From the IMG/VR virus record IMGVR_UViG_3300036770_002436, positions 1 through 22,706 of that record: a DNA stretch of 22,706 bases; one strand, given 5' to 3'. The notes beneath the pieces were generated by a model. It was not told where the DNA came from, did not search any database, and saw nothing but the letters and a program-made list of their open reading frames with translations. The position numbers and the translations under genes are program-made. Shown here piece after piece: positions 511 to 10,267 of the stretch. Every line of letters starts with the position of its first letter. Position 1 is the first letter of the stretch. The stretch comes from a virus.

Positions 511-1371
511 TCACTCCGATTCCTTCCGCAATTCCAAGGCTAGGCGCTGCTTAACCTTCCCAATGCCATCAGACAACAGCATGTAGGACGCCTTGCTCTC
601 AGTCCTGATCGTGTCAACGATGAATGAGTTGACCTCTTCAAGTTGATCCAGGCGCGCCATCTTGTCGCTAGTCGAAAACTTCTTGCTGTTCTCGATCTTG
701 TCCACCATGTCGAGAAATCCGCCCACCCAGTCATCATTGGTTGCGTAACGTGCGTAGGCTTCCTTGGCTCCGGGCACCATAAACACAATGCCTTCCTGGA
801 CCTGCTCGATGGGCTTGACGTCTTCAGTGATAACCATGGGCATGACCCTGGCTTCTGGAATCGTCTCTACTTCTGTCTCATCCATCATGCCCAGGCCACA
901 ATGCGCTAGGACTGCTCGCCTGATTGCTTTTGTAGTCGCTTTAAGGATTGCATTAGCCAAAGCGTCACCTCTTGCGGCCCCAACGGAGACTGCACCCTGA
1001 TTTTCCGAAACTCTGCCATCAGCCGCAGTAACTCGAACCGAGACAATGTAAATGTCATCAATTCGCTCCCGATGCGTAATTTGAGTTGACAGTCGATGAA
1101 TTGAACAGAGTTGCTGCGTGGCTCCCGCGTTGGCATACAGAATCTCCTTGCCGTTTAACTTCAGTAGATCAAAGGGTTTAGCAGCAGCATCCAGGCCCAC
1201 TTGCTTGCAGCGGAATAGGTAATACTCCTTCTTCTGCGCCTCGTTTAGACCAGACAAGTCACCTCGAAGAACGATGGACTCCTGAATCTTTGGATCAAGC
1301 ACTTGACGTGGCTCGACCTGGCCTGGTGCAATGCCTTGCACCGCGTCACTTAGACTGCGTACGTTTTTCAT
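511..1371 (-). CDS. Candidate single-strand annealing recombinase (RecT/Bet-like)
   Basis: A 286-residue protein with a conserved-looking core at about residues 44-170: EAQKKEYYLFRCKQVGLD, KPFDLLKLNGKEILYANAGA, then a basic helix (about 143-160) with TTKAIRRAVLAHCGLG followed by MDETEVE. An N-terminal 'critical fraction and diet' segment and a basic helix ending in G-x-G-M-x-DETE are familiar from phage recombination proteins that anneal single strands. The 170-286 tail is charged and probably helical. It lies one small gene away from a YqaJ-type exonuclease, the usual partner that resects DNA for such annealing proteins, which strengthens the call. The start is ATG at 1371 behind AAGGAAG. 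It overlaps the end of the upstream gene by 26 bp. A RecT versus another annealing superfamily cannot be decided by eye. Confidence 0.6.
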   Translation of the reverse strand: MKNVRSLSDAVQGIAPGQVEPRQVLDPKIQESIVLRGDLSGLNEAQKKEYYLFRCKQVGLDAAAKPFDLLKLNGKEILYANAGATQQLCSIHRLSTQITHRERIDDIYIVSVRVTAADGRVSENQGAVSVGAARGDALANAILKATTKAIRRAVLAHCGLGMMDETEVETIPEARVMPMVITEDVKPIEQVQEGIVFMVPGAKEAYARYATNDDWVGGFLDMVDKIENSKKFSTSDKMARLDQLEEVNSFIVDTIRTESKASYMLLSDGIGKVKQRLALELRKESE

Positions 1372-1600
1372 ATTCTTCCTTCATTTGATAGTAGATAGCG
1401 CCTTCTTTGCCAAACCAAAGGCCTGCGCACGTCATTTCCAAGTCATTGCTAACCGGATTCATGCGCAGTGCGTCTTTGCGGCCCTTCTCATACCCTTTGT
1501 CATAGCCTGCGGCATACACGTCTTCTTCTGGCACTGCGGTCCACCAGACAACGAAGATGCCTACGCATGCCCCCACCAGGGTGCTGACTAGGTGCTTCAT
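1346..1600 (-). CDS. Small single-pass membrane protein (84 aa)
   Basis: The protein starts MKHLVSTLVGACVGIFVVWW. Residues about 4-22 are a hydrophobic segment, either a signal anchor or an uncleaved signal, and it is followed by acidic residues and a glycine/tyrosine-rich linker GYDKGYEKGRKDALRMNP. No lipobox is visible. The ATG at 1600 overlaps the stop of the exonuclease gene as ATGA, and the 3' end overlaps the annealing-protein start by 26 bp, so it is wedged between the two recombination genes. The GY-x-KG-x-E-KG-R pattern occurs in other phage small proteins I remember, without a function. It could tether a complex to the membrane or be unrelated to recombination. Confidence 0.75.
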   Translation of the reverse strand: MKHLVSTLVGACVGIFVVWWTAVPEEDVYAAGYDKGYEKGRKDALRMNPVSNDLEMTCAGLWFGKEGAIYYQMKEEYEKRTQSK

Positions 1601-2490
1601 TTGACTAGGAACCGGCGTGAGCCAGGTTGCTCGACAATGAACTGCTTATAAATGTCAGGCATGGCCTTCTCAAACAACTCGGCAGAGAAACGCTTGCTCG
1701 ACTTGGCTGTTTTCCAGGTGCAAAGCACGTCACCATCAACAGATACCAACTCAGCGGCCTCCATCATGTAGCCCTGCAACTGCTTGAGCCAGGCTGCCTC
1801 CTTCGTCTCCAAGTCCTTGATCTGCGCCTTAATAGCCTTCAACTGCATCGCTGCATGCTCAAGGCTTTGAGTGGCAATGAGTTTGTTGCCATCGTCCTGG
1901 CGGTAGACCAGTTTGGCGGCATCTCCCATCGTCTCAGGATCAAATGAGCGTGCCTGGATACGTCCCCAGAACTCAGCCATCTCTCGAATGTGCAGGTCCA
2001 TCAGGTCAGCAGAGAAAGACTGCGGATAGCCGCATATTTCCTGGCCTCCAAAACAGACCACCAAAACGACGTTCTCAATCTGGTGGACAGTCGCTTCATG
2101 CAAGCATTGCACGCGGTAGCCAATATCAATGGTGGATTCGCCATCGTCGCCATACTTCTTGCGCTGGTGAACGCCCAGGTTCTTCACCTCATAGAGTGTC
2201 CTGCCATCCTCGCTTATGTAGTCAAAGTGAGAGGCCATCCACTTCTCTCTCGGGTGGTACAGGGCATAGTCTGCATCCTTGAATGCAATGCCTTTGCGCC
2301 TGGCGTATTCCTTCATGATTGGCTCTTGCATAACAAGGCCCATCTGGACTGCTTCCTTGTCGCTCAAGTCATCCAGTGGCTTGGCACCAATCTTCTCGGC
2401 GTAGACCTCGCCGCCCTTGCCTTCAACAAACCGGCGTGCATCGCCGGACCATAGCGCCTGGTTACGGACTTCGGGTGAAAAGTCACTCAT
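1597..2490 (-). CDS. YqaJ-type phage exonuclease (PD-(D/E)XK fold)
   Basis: A 297-residue protein with the nuclease motifs of the lambda-exonuclease/YqaJ family. There is a G-x(3)-E helix GLVMQEPIMKEYARRKG with E56, then D90 in ASHFDYI and the E-x-K pair E101/K103 in TLYEVKNLG, then a Y-x(2)-Q helix with Y125 and Q128. The metal-binding D...E-x-K set is complete, so activity is expected. Family members degrade one strand of duplex DNA to produce the tail bound by an annealing protein, here the candidate at 511-1371. The 210-297 tail contains a coiled-coil-like region (about 205-240). The ATG at 2490 overlaps the upstream stop by 8 bp, and its own stop overlaps the next start as ATGA. Confidence 0.87.
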   Translation of the reverse strand: MSDFSPEVRNQALWSGDARRFVEGKGGEVYAEKIGAKPLDDLSDKEAVQMGLVMQEPIMKEYARRKGIAFKDADYALYHPREKWMASHFDYISEDGRTLYEVKNLGVHQRKKYGDDGESTIDIGYRVQCLHEATVHQIENVVLVVCFGGQEICGYPQSFSADLMDLHIREMAEFWGRIQARSFDPETMGDAAKLVYRQDDGNKLIATQSLEHAAMQLKAIKAQIKDLETKEAAWLKQLQGYMMEAAELVSVDGDVLCTWKTAKSSKRFSAELFEKAMPDIYKQFIVEQPGSRRFLVK

Positions 2491-3278: not shown

Positions 3279-3307
3279 ACATTAAACGCTAGGACACACA
3301 CTGTCAA
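3279..3307 (-). promoter_or_regulatory. Candidate sigma70 promoter for the leftward replication operon
   Basis: On the minus strand a perfect TTGACA (3302-3307) is followed by TAATGT after 17 bp (3279-3284), or by the better hexamer TTTAAT (3281-3286) after 15 bp. The predicted start of transcription is near 3272, about 37 bp before ATG 3235. Its position, orientation and exact -35 agree. The -10 is imperfect. Confidence 0.55.
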
Positions 3308-3360
3308 CAACTATATCCATTGTATTTTTTAATCGACTGACGCTCTTCCATAGGTAGCCA

Positions 3361-3535
3361 GATGCCTGTGGATAAGTCTGTGGATAACTTTTGGGGAACT
3401 TGGGATGGGGTCCATATATCTATAGGTAGTCTATATCCTATAGGTCTATACGGTTTCTTATACCGTATACGAAACATAGATAAATAAAAAAAACAATGAT
3501 AGATGACCTATAGATATAGGGCTGTGGATAACTTT
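3361..3535. other. Candidate replication origin: DnaA boxes around an AT-rich segment
   Basis: Three exact copies of TGTGGATAA (the complement of the DnaA R1 box TTATCCACA) lie at 3367-3375, 3379-3387 and 3523-3531, all in the same orientation, the first two 12 bp apart. Between them is a very AT-rich tract (3411-3516) with CTATAG palindromes at 3420-3425, 3438-3443 and 3508-3513, a perfect 8-bp inverted repeat, and an A-tract. This is the arrangement expected of a bacterial-type origin with an unwinding element. No replication initiator gene is visible in the window. A host DnaA-binding regulatory site is the alternative. Confidence 0.55.
3447..3469. repeat. Perfect 8-bp inverted repeat in the candidate origin
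   Basis: TATACGGT (3447-3454) and ACCGTATA (3462-3469) are perfect complements around the 7-bp spacer TTCTTAT. It could be a protein-binding dyad or a cruciform in the AT-rich tract. No T-tract follows, so it is not a terminator. Confidence 0.6.
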
Positions 3536-3540
3536 TCATG

Positions 3541-3600
3541 GCCTGATCGTTTGCCATAAGCCGACTGATCGGCATTCATAACCTGATCGGTTGCCATAAG
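3541..3600. repeat. Three iteron-like imperfect direct repeats
   Basis: Units of about 20 bp share CTGATCG at 3543, 3565 and 3583. The first and third (3542-3560 and 3582-3600) share CCTGATCG-x-TTGCCATAAG with one mismatch and lie 40 bp apart. The middle one keeps CTGATCGG and CATA. They begin 10 bp after the third DnaA box. Near-helical-turn spacing next to DnaA boxes is how iterons are arranged in initiator-controlled origins. The function here is inferred. Confidence 0.55.
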
Positions 3601-3833: not shown

Positions 3834-3855
3834 AAAAAAGCCCCCGAAGGGGCTT
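3834..3855 (-). terminator. Intrinsic terminator of the minus-strand G+C-rich cassette
   Basis: On the minus strand AAGCCCC-TTCG-GGGGCTT is followed by a run of T (complement of the A-tract 3834-3839). The stem is 3838-3844 with 3849-3855 and the loop is a stable TTCG tetraloop. It lies 22 bp beyond the stop of the small membrane gene at 3877, so it closes the cassette transcribed from 5358. Confidence 0.85.
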
Positions 3856-3876: not shown

Positions 3877-4017
3877 CTAATATCCGGCAGCCACCCCGAG
3901 GGCCATCATGAGCCATAAAAGGCCATAAAAACCGGCAGCCGCGATAATGCAGAGAATCCAGAAGCCGAAGCCCCCGCGCTGCATGATTTCTTCGATTTTT
4001 TGCTCAAAACGGCTCAT
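3877..4017 (-). CDS. Very small membrane protein (46 aa)
   Basis: A 46-codon frame translated by hand: a polar start MSRFEQKIEEIMQRGGFG, then residues about 17-46 almost entirely hydrophobic (FWILCIIAAAGFYGLLWL and MMALGVAAGY). This is one long or two short membrane segments with an N-terminal amphipathic helix. ATG 4017 overlaps the end of the cysteine-cluster gene by 14 bp, and the stop is followed at once by the intrinsic terminator, so it is the last gene of the cassette. Candidate roles such as membrane anchor, holin-like protein or toxin-like peptide are guesses. No family is recognised. Confidence 0.68.
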   Translation of the reverse strand: MSRFEQKIEEIMQRGGFGFWILCIIAAAGFYGLLWLMMALGVAAGY

Positions 4018-4708
4018 TTTTCCCCCCTTCGATTTTTACCAATGGAATCACCCGGCGCGCTGTGGAATCGGCCATCTTTGCGCGCATGCCGTGTGCTAAA
4101 AAGCCCACAATTGTCTCCCGGTTTGCCCGTGAGCATAGGCCACATGTCTTGCATGTGACATTTTCGCGGGTTTGCGCCGGGCAAACGACGATAGGCCTAC
4201 CGGCAGGGGTGAAAGCCTTTTCCGGCGTGTCAGTGGGCACAATTGCCACCACCGGCCCGGCTTTCAATTCTGCAAGCCTATCGGCTTCCCCTGCATCATC
4301 CGCGCTTAGATTCACCGTGAACCCGGCCCGGTTTGCGGCTCGAATTGCCCGGATGGCCTGCGCGCTTTTCTTGTGGGAATAGGTAAAGCCCCTTTTCCCT
4401 AAGTTTGCCAGTACCAGAGCCGCGAGGGCTTTTGAGTCTATTTTTTCACCCTCGCCCGGCAAATCCCCCGCGACATTGTGGCGCCACAATGTGCCCACCG
4501 GCAGCCGCTCGATTTTTTCGCACAATTCGGCCCACGATAGGCCATCGGCTGCGCGATTCCACGCGAGGGCTGTGTGATAACCCTCGGCATAGCACGACCC
4601 CCGATAATGGGGGCAGGATGGGGGGCAAGTGGACCGCTGCGAATAGGTGACCGGGATTTTCCCGGTCTTAGCATTCGCAGACTCTTGAACGAATAGGGCA
4701 TGTGTCAT
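4004..4708 (-). CDS. Cysteine-cluster phage/plasmid protein, possibly radical-SAM-like
   Basis: A 234-residue protein. I start at ATG 4708, preceded by AGGGGGG, rather than at the GTG at 4726. Two cysteine clusters are visible: CPPSCPHYRGSCYA (C28, C32, C39) and CPAQTRENVTCKTCGLCSR (C176, C186, C189, C192). Between them run segments WRHNVAGDLPG (75-85), GFTYSHK (107-113), FTVNLSADDAGEAD (130-143) and GPVVAIVP (151-158), spaced like successive strands of a barrel. I remember a phage/plasmid family with this pattern (DUF7227-like). The first cluster, a GD-containing second segment and an auxiliary C-terminal cluster recall radical SAM enzymes, though CX3CX6C is not the classic CX3CX2C. The function is unproven. 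It sits with two small genes often seen alongside it. Confidence 0.75.
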   Translation of the reverse strand: MTHALFVQESANAKTGKIPVTYSQRSTCPPSCPHYRGSCYAEGYHTALAWNRAADGLSWAELCEKIERLPVGTLWRHNVAGDLPGEGEKIDSKALAALVLANLGKRGFTYSHKKSAQAIRAIRAANRAGFTVNLSADDAGEADRLAELKAGPVVAIVPTDTPEKAFTPAGRPIVVCPAQTRENVTCKTCGLCSRANRETIVGFLAHGMRAKMADSTARRVIPLVKIEGGKNEPF

Positions 4709-4722
4709 TTTTTGCCCCCCTC

Positions 4723-4929
4723 TCACAGTGTGATCCGGTCTGCGGTTTTTTCGGTGATTTCACCGGCCCGGTGCAGCGCGTCGATAAAGTCTACAAACGC
4801 GCAGCGCGTATCAATCGGGTAAACCAATTCGGCGCTTTTGTCCGATTGATTCCACGAATATCGATACCGGCGACGCGGCAAATCGGGGTGGGTCTGCCAG
4901 AAAAGAGCGCGGATTTCTGCGTGCGTCAT
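4723..4929 (-). CDS. Small hypothetical protein (68 aa)
   Basis: A 68-residue protein starting MTHAEIRALFWQTHPDL and ending in TRCAFVDFIDALHRAGEITE-KTADRITL. The C-terminal motif TRCAFVD-(F/Y)-(I/V)-D-x-L followed by G-x-I-(S/T)-E-x-x-A-x-R is familiar to me from hypothetical proteins of proteobacterial phages and plasmids. ATG 4929 follows GAGGGGGG, and the gene ends 15 bp before the start chosen for the cysteine-cluster gene. No catalytic pattern is visible. The helical C terminus could bind DNA or a partner. Confidence 0.78.
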   Translation of the reverse strand: MTHAEIRALFWQTHPDLPRRRYRYSWNQSDKSAELVYPIDTRCAFVDFIDALHRAGEITEKTADRITL

Positions 4930-5421: not shown

Positions 5422-5442
5422 CGCAAAGGGGGCAGGGGTTCC

Positions 5443-5501
5443 CTATATATATATGTTTTTTTTTCTATAGGTTTGTAGGTATCTATAGACGGAATCTATA
5501 G
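5443..5501. repeat. Second CTATAG palindrome cluster
   Basis: CTATAG occurs at 5465-5470, 5483-5488 and 5496-5501, just after an alternating TA tract (5443-5452). The same hexamer occurs three times in the candidate origin at 3420-3513, and I saw none elsewhere in the window by eye. It could be a site for a phage-coded regulator or initiator. Confidence 0.5.
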
Positions 5502-5530
5502 GGGATGGGCGCACGGGTGAAGGGATGGGG
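5501..5530 (+). other. G-quadruplex motif 1
   Basis: G-runs at 5501-5504, 5507-5509, 5515-5517, 5522-5524 and 5527-5530 are separated by loops of 2, 5, 4 and 2 bases. This satisfies the canonical four-run G3+ pattern with loops of at most 7. It begins at the last base of the third CTATAG. Confidence 0.55.
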
Positions 5531-6369: not shown

Positions 6370-6658
6370 CGATGAGGCTGATGGGGGTATTGATCCCAGG
6401 CTCAGATGTTTCTCATGTGGGGAAGTGCATGAGAGGGCCAGGATCGTTACGACGGTTGATGGCAGGGAGATGGGGAATTATCAGGACGAGTGGCGCAGGT
6501 ATCACGAAGCCATGTGGGTCTTGAAGAAGTTTAGGACGAAGAAGACAAGGCAGGGGTATCTGAGCCGCATTGCCGAGATACGGGGAGAGCGTGCCATGCA
6601 CGAACTCAGGGCTGAAATGATGCTGTTATGGACTTGGAAAAAGGAGAATCAAAAATGA
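6356..6658 (+). CDS. Hypothetical protein with a CxxC knuckle (100 aa)
   Basis: Starting at ATG 6356 (MGNPNDEADGGIDPRLRCFSCGEVHER), six bases after AAGG and giving a 14-bp overlap. A second in-frame ATG at 6332 is possible but overlaps by 38 bp. A C-F-S-C-G-E-x-H element at residues 18-24 could bind one metal with the following histidine. The rest is a basic helical region rich in K/R (WVLKKFRTKKTRQGYLSRIAEI, shown in part). It may bind nucleic acid. No known family is recognised. Its stop overlaps the next start as ATGA. Confidence 0.72.
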   Translation: MGNPNDEADGGIDPRLRCFSCGEVHERARIVTTVDGREMGNYQDEWRRYHEAMWVLKKFRTKKTRQGYLSRIAEIRGERAMHELRAEMMLLWTWKKENQK

Positions 6659-7037: not shown

Positions 7038-7261
7038 GCATAGAGGCAATGAAGGAGGCGGTGGCGGCCTTTGACCGAATCATTGATGGCTGCAACGGCA
7101 TCGACGAAGAGGACACCCACCCAGAGGCAAAAAAGGTGGCTAGGCTGGTCAGGAAGGATTGCTTGCGCGCCCTGGAAGCACTCTGCCAGGCGATTGCAAA
7201 GGCAAAAAAGCAAGAGCCTGATGACGACATTTACGACGTTTGGAAAGAGAAGAACGCGTGA
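7034..7261 (+). CDS. Small hypothetical acidic helical protein (75 aa)
   Basis: A 75-residue, mostly helical protein (MSIEAMKEAVAAFDRIIDGC ... RLVRKDCLRALEALCQAIAK) ending in an acidic tail PDDDIYDVWKEKNA. ATG 7034 overlaps the previous stop as ATGA and has AAGGGG upstream. The stop is coupled as GTGA to the glycosyltransferase. No known function. Confidence 0.75.
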   Translation: MSIEAMKEAVAAFDRIIDGCNGIDEEDTHPEAKKVARLVRKDCLRALEALCQAIAKAKKQEPDDDIYDVWKEKNA

Positions 7262-7926
7262 GGTCTGTGGCTGTGGTCACTGCGACGACCGGTAGGCCCG
7301 AGTTGGAGCAGACGATTGAATCTGTGGCTGCCCAGACGTACCCGTGTAAGCACTACGTATTCTTTGACGGGGTAGAACCACGTCCCCTGCCAAACCAGGT
7401 TTTGACTGTGAACCTACCCGTAAAGACTGGTGGGGATGGTGTTCTAAATCACGGAATCGTGGCTGCCTCTGCTTACCTGGTGCAGGAAGACTTGATCTGT
7501 TGGGTGGATGACGACAACTGGCTGGAACCCGAGCATGTGGAAAGCCTGGTCGAAGCCATAGGCGAGAACATGTGGGCGCATAGCCTGAGAAAACTGGTCA
7601 ATGCCGATGGCACGTTTTGGGATTACGACGATGGGGAGTCCCTGGGCGTGTGGACCGGCTTTGTAGACCTGAATTGCTACATGATGGACAGAAAGCGCCT
7701 AGCCGTGCGCATAGCGCCTTCTTGGTACACCATGGGTAGTGGTGGGGTGATGGTGGGTGATCGGGCGGTCTATGCCTCGATTAAGGGCTTACCTGGCCCT
7801 TGCAGTGGGGTGTACAGCGTGAACTACAGGCTTAACTCTCGGGTGGACCTGCGTGGGTTTTTTACCCAGGCCAATAACGCCATGAGGCAGAAGTTTCCAA
7901 ACCAATTACCGTGGAGAAAAGCATGA
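7258..7926 (+). CDS. GT2-like glycosyltransferase
   Basis: A 222-residue protein started at GTG 7258, which overlaps the preceding stop as GTGA. A TTG 18 bp upstream is possible. The N terminus VAVVTATTGRPELEQTIESV fits the nucleotide-binding first strand and helix of GT-A family 2 enzymes (residues 4-22). The metal-binding DXD element is WVDDDNW (D84-D86). A strand WYTMGSGGVMVGDRAVY (about 155-175) follows. Family members transfer a sugar from a nucleotide donor to a lipid, protein or saccharide. The acceptor here is unknown. It sits with a methyltransferase just before the terminase, so modification of virion or host-surface saccharide is a guess. It is shorter than typical GT2 enzymes. Confidence 0.8.
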   Translation: MRSVAVVTATTGRPELEQTIESVAAQTYPCKHYVFFDGVEPRPLPNQVLTVNLPVKTGGDGVLNHGIVAASAYLVQEDLICWVDDDNWLEPEHVESLVEAIGENMWAHSLRKLVNADGTFWDYDDGESLGVWTGFVDLNCYMMDRKRLAVRIAPSWYTMGSGGVMVGDRAVYASIKGLPGPCSGVYSVNYRLNSRVDLRGFFTQANNAMRQKFPNQLPWRKA

Positions 7927-8510
7927 GTTACGCCTTTAGTTTTGACTGGTTTACCCACAATGCAAACAACTTTCTGGCAGTCAAGAACGTCTTACCTGCC
8001 AAACAAAACATGCTTGAGATTGGATCGTTCGAGGGCAGGTCCATGGTATGGATTGCCAAGAACATGCTCGAAGACGGTGGCACCCTGGTCTGCATTGATA
8101 CTTGGTTAGGCGGTGTAGAGCATCGCACCGTGGGCATGGACCTAAACGTGATCGAAGAGAGGTTTGACCACAACCTAGAATTGCTGGCAATCGAAGAGCC
8201 AAACAAAAAGGTGGTCAAAAAGAAGGGGCGCTCGGCCCAAATGGTGGCTAGTCTTATTGACTCGCCCAAGTTTGATCTGATCTACGTGGACGGCAGCCAT
8301 GAGGCTGCGGATTGTTTGAGTGATGCCGTCATGTGTTGGGAAGTGCTAAAGCCCGGTGGCGTGATGATCTTTGATGACTATGGCTGGAATGACAGGCCGG
8401 TAGGACCGTTTCACCCCAAGCCTGCGGTGGATGCGTTTATCAACTTCTTCCACAAAGACTTGACCGTGTTGTACATGAACTACCAGGTTGCGGTGCAAAA
8501 GAAACCATGA
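7923..8510 (+). CDS. Class I SAM-dependent methyltransferase
   Basis: A 195-residue protein. Start ATG 7923 (ATGA overlap, GGAG 6 bp upstream) is preferred to the GTG at 7911. SAM-binding motif I is MLEIGSFEGRS (E32-x-G), motif II has VCIDTW (D59), and motif IV is FDLIYVDGSH (D123). The post-motif is LKPGGVMIFDDYGW (D151-D152). The combined layout is that of the Methyltransf_24/CmcI-like group. The substrate is unknown. The preceding gene is a glycosyltransferase and the two could modify the same molecule. The stop overlaps the terminase start as ATGA. Confidence 0.85.
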   Translation: MSYAFSFDWFTHNANNFLAVKNVLPAKQNMLEIGSFEGRSMVWIAKNMLEDGGTLVCIDTWLGGVEHRTVGMDLNVIEERFDHNLELLAIEEPNKKVVKKKGRSAQMVASLIDSPKFDLIYVDGSHEAADCLSDAVMCWEVLKPGGVMIFDDYGWNDRPVGPFHPKPAVDAFINFFHKDLTVLYMNYQVAVQKKP

Positions 8511-10267
8511 ACTTTGACCGCGCCAAGTTTTACCACTTCTGCAAGCACCTAAAGATTGAAACCAAAGAGCAGGGCATGCGTGTCCTGGGCGATCAGTTGC
8601 TTGGCACCCAGACGTACGTCATGGATGAAGTGGCCCGAGGCTTGGCTGAAGACAAACACTTCTTTGTGGTTCTCAAAGGCCGTCAGTTAGGTATAACCAC
8701 CATCAGCCTGGCGCTTGATCTGTACTGGCACTTTGTCCACCCCGGCATGCAGGGCACCTTAACAACGGATACAGAAGAGAATCGTGAGCAGTTTAGAAGC
8801 ACCCTTCAAATGTACATGGACGGATTGCCCAAGGAATACAAAATCCCTCTCATGTCCCACAACCGCAACCAAATGGTTCTCAAGAACCGATCACGCCTGT
8901 TCTATCAGGTTGCAGGTATCCGAGCGAAAGGTGGCCTTGGGCGCGGAAAAGGAATTACGTTTCTGCACGGTACTGAGACATCTTCTTGGGGTGACGAGGA
9001 AGGACTGGCTTCCCTCCTTGCCTCCCTTGCCGAACAAAACCCCCTGCGCTACTACATGTTCGAGTCCACCGCCCGAGGTTTCAACATGTTCCACGACATG
9101 TGGGTAACAGCCAAACGCGCCAGGACACAGAAGGCCATTTTCGTTGGCTGGTGGCGCAACCAGTTTTACTCTGCTGACCCAAACAGCGACATATACAAGG
9201 TCTACTGGGACGGGAAACTCAACCCGGAAGAGAAAGAGTGGACCAAAGACATAAAGAAAATCTACAACTACGAAGTCAATAGCAGACAGATTGCCTGGTG
9301 GCGCTGGAAACTGCACGAAGGCCTTAAAGACGAAGGCCTGATGTACCAGGAATTCCCGCCGACAGAGGATTACGCCTTTGTCATGACCGGAACCTCCTTT
9401 TTCAGCACCGCCCGATGCACCGATGCGATGAAGTCTGCCAAGAAAGAGGCGTTTATCTCCTATCGCTTCTCCATGGGGGCCAATTTCCAGGACACGCAAC
9501 TGCTGCAAAGCACTGAACGCCTGGCAACACTGAAAATCTGGGAAGAACCCGTCTCCACTGCCTACTATGTGATCGGTGCAGACCCCGCCTACGGCTCAAG
9601 TGACTGGGCAGACCGCTTTTGCATCCAAGTTTTTCGCTGTTACGCCGACGGAATGGACCAGGTGGCTGAATTTGCCACTTCCGAACTCAATACCTTCCAA
9701 TTTGCCTGGGTGATTTGCTATCTGGCGGGTGCCTACACGAATTCCACGCTGAACCTGGAAGTCAACGGGCCGGGCCAGGCCGTAATCCAGGAAATGCGCA
9801 ACCTAAAGCGCCAAGCCACGGCTTTGCCGGGCAATGAGGGCCGAGAACTGACCAATGTGCTGTCAAACATGCAGCACTACCTCTGGCGGCGCAACGATTC
9901 CTTTGGAATCTCGAACTCCATCGGGTGGGTTACGACGCATAGCAGCAAAGAACGCATGCTCAATTACTTCAAAGACTATTTTGAGCGCGGCATGCTCAAC
10001 GTCTACAGCACGGAGTGCATCGACGAGATGAAGGGCATTGTGCGGGACCAGGGCACGATTGCCGCCATGGGCCGCGCCAAAGATGATCGAGTCATGGCAG
10101 CAGCCCTGGCAACCGCCGCTTTTGCCGAACAACTACAACCCAGGCTGATCCAAATGCGATTGACGCGGGAAAAGAAGGTGATTCAAGATGATGAGGCCGA
10201 AAACGGAGGCCAAGCACAGGTCGGGAAGCAGGTTTCTAACTACTTACGCGCACTGGGGTTCCAATGA
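8507..10267 (+). CDS. terL: Terminase large subunit
   Basis: A 586-residue packaging motor. The ATPase has Walker A KGRQLGITT (57-65) and a Walker B-like ITFLHGTE with E157. The linker QEFPPTEDYAFVMTGTSFF (about 281-299) and the nuclease domain with D359 in VIGADPAYG, E418 in NLEVNGPGQ and D527/D528 in AKDDRVMAAALA complete the metal-binding triad. It cuts and pumps DNA through the portal. No conventional small terminase is recognisable upstream. The HTH protein downstream (10264) is a candidate partner. The start overlaps the methyltransferase stop as ATGA. Confidence 0.93.
   Translation: MNFDRAKFYHFCKHLKIETKEQGMRVLGDQLLGTQTYVMDEVARGLAEDKHFFVVLKGRQLGITTISLALDLYWHFVHPGMQGTLTTDTEENREQFRSTLQMYMDGLPKEYKIPLMSHNRNQMVLKNRSRLFYQVAGIRAKGGLGRGKGITFLHGTETSSWGDEEGLASLLASLAEQNPLRYYMFESTARGFNMFHDMWVTAKRARTQKAIFVGWWRNQFYSADPNSDIYKVYWDGKLNPEEKEWTKDIKKIYNYEVNSRQIAWWRWKLHEGLKDEGLMYQEFPPTEDYAFVMTGTSFFSTARCTDAMKSAKKEAFISYRFSMGANFQDTQLLQSTERLATLKIWEEPVSTAYYVIGADPAYGSSDWADRFCIQVFRCYADGMDQVAEFATSELNTFQFAWVICYLAGAYTNSTLNLEVNGPGQAVIQEMRNLKRQATALPGNEGRELTNVLSNMQHYLWRRNDSFGISNSIGWVTTHSSKERMLNYFKDYFERGMLNVYSTECIDEMKGIVRDQGTIAAMGRAKDDRVMAAALATAAFAEQLQPRLIQMRLTREKKVIQDDEAENGGQAQVGKQVSNYLRALGFQ

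Follow-up and report, generated by a model that had tools for sequence, protein, structure and literature searches.

How does a tailed phage start to copy its DNA if its family encodes no recognisable replication initiator, and could a short noncoding stretch carrying binding sites for host DnaA serve as its origin? The question is raised by a 22,706-bp linear viral contig of a tailed phage, the whole of which is called the window here. Its early genes are read leftward and its structural genes rightward. One leftward operon encodes a single-strand annealing protein (511–1371, minus strand, weak Rad52 match) and a YqaJ/RecE-like exonuclease (1597–2490, minus strand), a second leftward operon encodes a DUF7227 protein (4004–4726), and the terminase gene lies at 8507–10267 in rightward orientation. 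The slot directly before the terminase (7240–8510) holds a glycosyltransferase (PF00535) and a methyltransferase-like ORF, and its content varies between relatives. In the noncoding DNA upstream of the exonuclease operon, a sequence-only reading had noticed DnaA boxes, an AT-rich stretch and iteron-like repeats, and had suggested host DnaA-dependent or plasmid-like replication, possibly with a phage-plasmid lifestyle.

Tandem DnaA boxes next to the least stable stretch of the window

The exact nonamer TGTGGATAA occurs three times in the window, as first noticed, and all three copies are on the plus strand in a single orientation: box 1 at 3367–3375, box 2 at 3379–3387 and box 3 at 3523–3531, with no further copy. 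About 0.1 copies are expected by chance (shuffled sequences contained 0.10 on average, and none of 100 shuffles reached three). Boxes 1 and 2, separated by a gap of 3 bp, form a tandem array of which box 1 is kept in relatives, while box 3 lies beyond the AT-rich block and is kept in part of the family only. Reading the DNA beside the boxes by eye against the published rules for DnaA-trios (PMC8287927), we found a single TAG adjoining many boxes and no run of three.

Between boxes 2 and 3 lies an AT-rich block (3412–3521), a putative unwinding element bounded by an imperfect inverted repeat, in which 3412–3434 pairs with 3499–3521 (23 nt, 87% complementary). Of all 80-bp and 150-bp segments in the 22.7 kb, those of lowest stability begin at 3414 and 3369, respectively. 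The motifs ascribed earlier to this stretch are indeed there, with CTATAG copies at 3420, 3438 and 3508 and a perfect 8-bp AT-rich dyad, TATACGGT-TTCTTAT-ACCGTATA, at 3447–3469. Taken alone, the dyad is marginal in the window (p ~0.06). Several relatives have dyads at a comparable position, 48–85 bp past box 2, with a sequence that differs by lineage; they are significant in about half of the tested lineages and not in the remainder. The DNA adjoining the array is the least stable, or the second or third least stable, of every array-bearing genome, and an AT-rich block adjoins the array nearly always, L040 being the exception on that side.

Instability alone cannot mark an origin, because a second AT-rich CTATAG block (5441–5505), upstream of the second leftward operon and devoid of DnaA boxes, is almost as unstable as the block of the array. 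It contains three further CTATAG copies (5465–5501), which shows that the motif is not specific to the box region, and it is possibly a shared regulator site. A box-free CTATAG block also precedes the second leftward operon (ArdC or DUF7227) in the relatives G006 (from ~6191) and G002 (from ~5929).

The 20-bp imperfect repeats that had been described as iteron-like are present, with three copies of CTGATCG...CATAA on the plus strand at 3543–3599, but an iteron role found no support. The closest relatives, L002 and L083, do not have them, their box region being otherwise near-identical, and elsewhere the motif was found in single copies only, in L007 and L089. These repeats probably lie outside the core element.

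Conservation of the tandem pair among relatives

By scanning IMG/VR for the exonuclease and the terminase we collected 160 related loci, among which 27 distinct contigs, picked by their genes, extend from the exonuclease gene into that of the terminase. In 21 of these 27 spanning contigs, the tandem pair was found with the 3-bp gap unchanged, at the same place and in the same orientation, so that the comparison with close relatives proposed in the sequence-only reading came out in favour of the boxes and their spacing. The six contigs without the array are L111, L113, G004, L072, MW202753 and MW202825; an apparent array in MW202753 (27217/27229) was rejected as a chance match, with one mismatch per box and a location within a coding region.

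In 13 clusters with less than 70% identity, both nonamers are 90–100% kept and the flanks fall to roughly 30–60%, figures that overstate conservation because these segments, unlike the 27 spanning contigs, were picked by their boxes. In distant relatives, with exonucleases 42–47% identical, three to four boxes lie upstream of the exonuclease in the same orientation, spaced by 12, 11 and 11 bp; having been found via the box pattern, they are evidence of persistence and not of frequency. In L446, the array is located at the other leftward operon and in opposite orientation, again beside AT-rich DNA and, as read from the sequence, ~39 bp from a promoter-like sequence.

Promoter, terminator and GC skew

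Next to the array, upstream of the exonuclease operon, we found a sigma70-like leftward promoter (3279–3307, minus strand) that matches the consensus and is kept in relatives; it consists of a -35 element TTGACA (3302–3307), a 17-bp spacer and a -10 element TAATGT (3279–3284), and is not listed by a stricter consensus scan. On the other side, a leftward terminator-like hairpin (3838–3855, minus strand) would insulate the block against the second leftward operon. Depending on the lineage, the -35 element and the boxes are 27, 37–39, 46–48 or 59 bp apart, i.e. in steps of about one helical turn. Exceptions are one lineage with 77 bp and L011, L020/L023/L027 and L040, which have no clear promoter at this place.

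An analysis of GC skew, which had been suggested as a check, did reveal a cumulative minimum near the array, but the minimum tracks gene orientation, and with this confounder it gives no clear origin signal. When only leftward genes were considered, those left of the array were more G-skewed than those right of it in 8/8 genomes, as a fork origin predicts. One-strand skew at third positions agreed in 6/8, and rightward genes trend oppositely in complete genomes.

Gene content of a complete relative and the host

Which replication genes accompany the array? The relative G006 (36,037 bp, with a slightly degenerate array) is probably complete because it has a 45-bp terminal repeat. We compared 58 of its predicted proteins with Pfam, and 30 of them, mainly non-structural, also with PHROGs. 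These proteins include an exonuclease, an annealing protein, an SSB-like protein, RusA/PDDEXK-type nucleases, ArdC, a small winged HTH protein, and lysis and virion proteins. No polymerase, helicase, primase, helicase loader, Rep/O-type initiator, integrase or partition protein was detected in this comparison (Pfam for 58, PHROGs for 30 proteins). The early-region ORFs of at least 150 aa encode the annealing protein, the exonuclease, ArdC and a glycosyltransferase-like protein, with no unassigned one among them.

Since G006 has no recognisable replication genes, a host factor must load DnaB. DnaA at the boxes is the simplest candidate, the other being PriA-type restart on recombination intermediates. 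The phage-plasmid lifestyle considered earlier finds no support in the same gene content, as this complete, array-bearing relative has no Rep, partition or integrase genes by Pfam/PHROGs.

A terminase scan of bacterial genomes revealed no prophage, and its sole match was a phage-sized 37.6-kb contig in a Balneolaceae MAG. This contig (G015:C8; L186, L189, L190) resembles a whole phage of the family in circularly permuted form; as it is probably a binning artefact, Balneolaceae are not reliable as the host. A search for tRNA genes as a clue to the host found none.

Natural variants without the array

L072 lacks exactly 59 bp containing the array, with flanks that are otherwise near-identical, and retains the promoter and the CTATAG/dyad block; if this is no assembly error, the array is dispensable in L072. 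L054, whose exonuclease is 72% identical to that of the window, has no array and encodes an O-like initiator, a DnaB-like helicase and a CHC2 primase fragment. This contig (IMGVR_UViG_3300047284_000257) joins the exonuclease operon of the family to replication genes that are common in another phage group, and it may be a natural recombinant or a chimera. Another 80 loci with an L054-type helicase have neither the exonuclease nor the terminase of the family and were left out of all counts.

In the clade L111/L113/G004 the element is missing altogether, and there are genes for a beta-clamp-like protein (PF02767). The respective genes are located at 6530–7171 in L111, 6536–7168 in L113 and 35438–36046 in G004, and such a gene is also present in L013. 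The clade represents a single event and a clamp is no initiator; a more divergent clamp-like gene occurs together with the array in L024, L026 and L490. A partial scan of L111, L113, G004 and the circular MW202753 and MW202825 identified no initiator gene. A link between loss of the array and replication genes is suggestive only, and the variants would be consistent with exchangeable replication strategies without proving them.

Discussion

The most likely reading of the region 3279–3531, which we hold with moderate confidence, is that of a borrowed oriC-like origin run by host DnaA. It builds on the boxes, their spacing and conservation, the instability of the adjoining DNA, the layout of promoter and terminator and the lack of recognisable replication genes in the complete relative. 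Of the replication modes proposed in the sequence-only reading, dependence on host DnaA is retained as the best explanation of a conserved array beside an unstable block with no initiator seen, and the phage-plasmid part finds no support. Host DnaA would bind the tandem boxes, and in the branch of the window also box 3 past the AT-rich block, forming an oligomer that would melt the block. The helicase DnaB, primase and Pol III would be loaded next, all three supplied by the host, as no gene for any of them is apparent in the phage. Transcription that runs leftward from the early promoter nearby may help. In a later shift to recombination-dependent replication, the exonuclease and the annealing protein of the operon would convert the products into concatemers for packaging.

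In favour of such a predicted origin we count the boxes far above chance, the pair in 21 of the 27 spanning contigs and the three to four boxes at 42–47% exonuclease identity, as well as L054, which has an O-like initiator and a helicase where the array is missing, and L446, in which the array is relocated yet lies beside AT-rich DNA. Against it we count the 59-bp loss in L072, the array-less clade and the circular relatives MW202753 and MW202825, the second unstable block without boxes, the lack of a clean skew signal and of a convincing DnaA-trio run, and the helically phased relation of array and promoter, which would suit a role in transcription.

This last point leads to the main rival explanation, in which host DnaA upstream of the leftward early promoter would activate or repress the exonuclease operon, and replication would start at another place, or on recombination intermediates by PriA-type restart. 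A promoter of the TTGACA-17-TAATGT type adjoins the array in most lineages, the distances that step by about one helical turn are as expected of an activator contacting RNA polymerase, L072 retains the promoter without the array, and DnaA, with boxes near a promoter, has a known effect on transcription at ori-lambda (PMC3985674). We nevertheless consider this explanation less likely, given that the independent distance classes are few, that the 77-bp lineage and several lineages with no clear promoter depart from the pattern, that in L446 the boxes face the other way with respect to the downstream operon, and that the replication start of an initiator-less phage would be left unexplained. The two roles, origin and promoter control, are not mutually exclusive.

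The true origin could also be the CTATAG/dyad block itself, bound by a phage protein in the manner of a plasmid initiator, with the DnaA boxes in the helper role that they have in P1 and iteron plasmids. In most lineages the array comes together with CTATAG-type repeats or AT-rich dyads, and L072 keeps both without the array. The absence of an initiator-like protein and of an unassigned early ORF of at least 150 aa in G006, the different block sequence in distant relatives and the recurrence of CTATAG at the promoter of the second operon, which better suits a regulator, make this improbable. Least probable to us is that the array acts as a sponge, titrating host DnaA and slowing host replication, or that it is a neutral remnant of a host or plasmid origin. 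Its boxes are predicted sites at the level of sequence only, and many phages carry such arrays, as either idea would have it; the sponge needs no fixed position and the remnant would decay, whereas the two to four boxes per genome occupy one fixed place beside unstable DNA and are kept while their flanks diverge.

How does a host-DnaA origin of this kind compare with known systems? In P1 oriR and other iteron plasmid origins, DnaA boxes adjoin an AT-rich block as they do here. An iteron plasmid or phage-plasmid origin found no support, as the iteron-like repeats of the window are not conserved and neither a Rep gene nor a partition gene is found among the 58 proteins of the complete relative. 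The window itself is a fragment. Small bacterial plasmids with tandem DnaA boxes replicate in the oriC manner, and our three-box query matches 3-kb bacterial plasmids, e.g. from Buchnera, at 88% identity; those are plasmids, whereas the present carriers are phages. Lambda ori resembles the element in having DnaA boxes by an early-region promoter in a tailed phage with an exonuclease/annealing operon, but lambda encodes an initiator, O, and a helicase loader, P, neither of which is seen in the array-bearing relative of this family. A lambda-type origin found no support, with an O-like initiator and helicase or loader absent from G006 and seen only in the array-less L054. Tandem boxes no more than 3 bp apart beside an unwinding region are the commonest predicted layout of bacterial oriC (PMC8287927), and the element shares with this basal unwinding system the consensus tandem boxes, the gap of at most 3 bp and the least stable DNA next to them. 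It differs from bacterial oriC by its place in a phage genome, by having two to four boxes only, no convincing DnaA-trio run and no dnaA nearby, and by a function that is a predicted one.

Are tandem boxes confined to this family? A scan of 2.9 million viral contigs for exact TGTGGATAA-NNN-TGTGGATAA returned at least 120 stretches, with an estimated chance expectation of roughly one in the whole collection. Among the matches listed, the majority of those examined are located outside ORFs of at least 100 aa and in other phages, which makes tandem DnaA boxes a recurrent phage feature of which the studied family is one well-supported case. In IMG/VR, more than 118 loci (L373–L490), mostly of other phage groups, have exact tandem boxes, and clusters of 5–9 boxes occur, e.g. 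in L414, L420 and L459.

As a rule, the tailed phages known in detail supply an initiator or a helicase loader of their own, if not more. In a literature search that reached few subscription journals, we found no published description of a tailed phage relying on host DnaA alone. Origins of the oriC type are known already; what is new, in our moderately confident view, is to find one in phages with no recognisable initiators. The conserved oriC-like element and the apparent absence of such genes turn a start by host DnaA alone in a tailed phage into a testable question, and the frequency of tandem boxes in viral contigs suggests that this question reaches past the studied family. As a tentative picture, a widespread and probably lytic family of tailed phages may have dropped initiator, helicase, loader and primase in favour of a minimal oriC mimic driven wholly by host DnaA, which some relatives would have swapped for other replication modules. 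If true, this would tie phage growth to the initiation control of the host, provide a minimal natural origin and hint at how related phages exchange their replication modules, and the tandem boxes in many unrelated viral contigs would then mean that the strategy is a common one.
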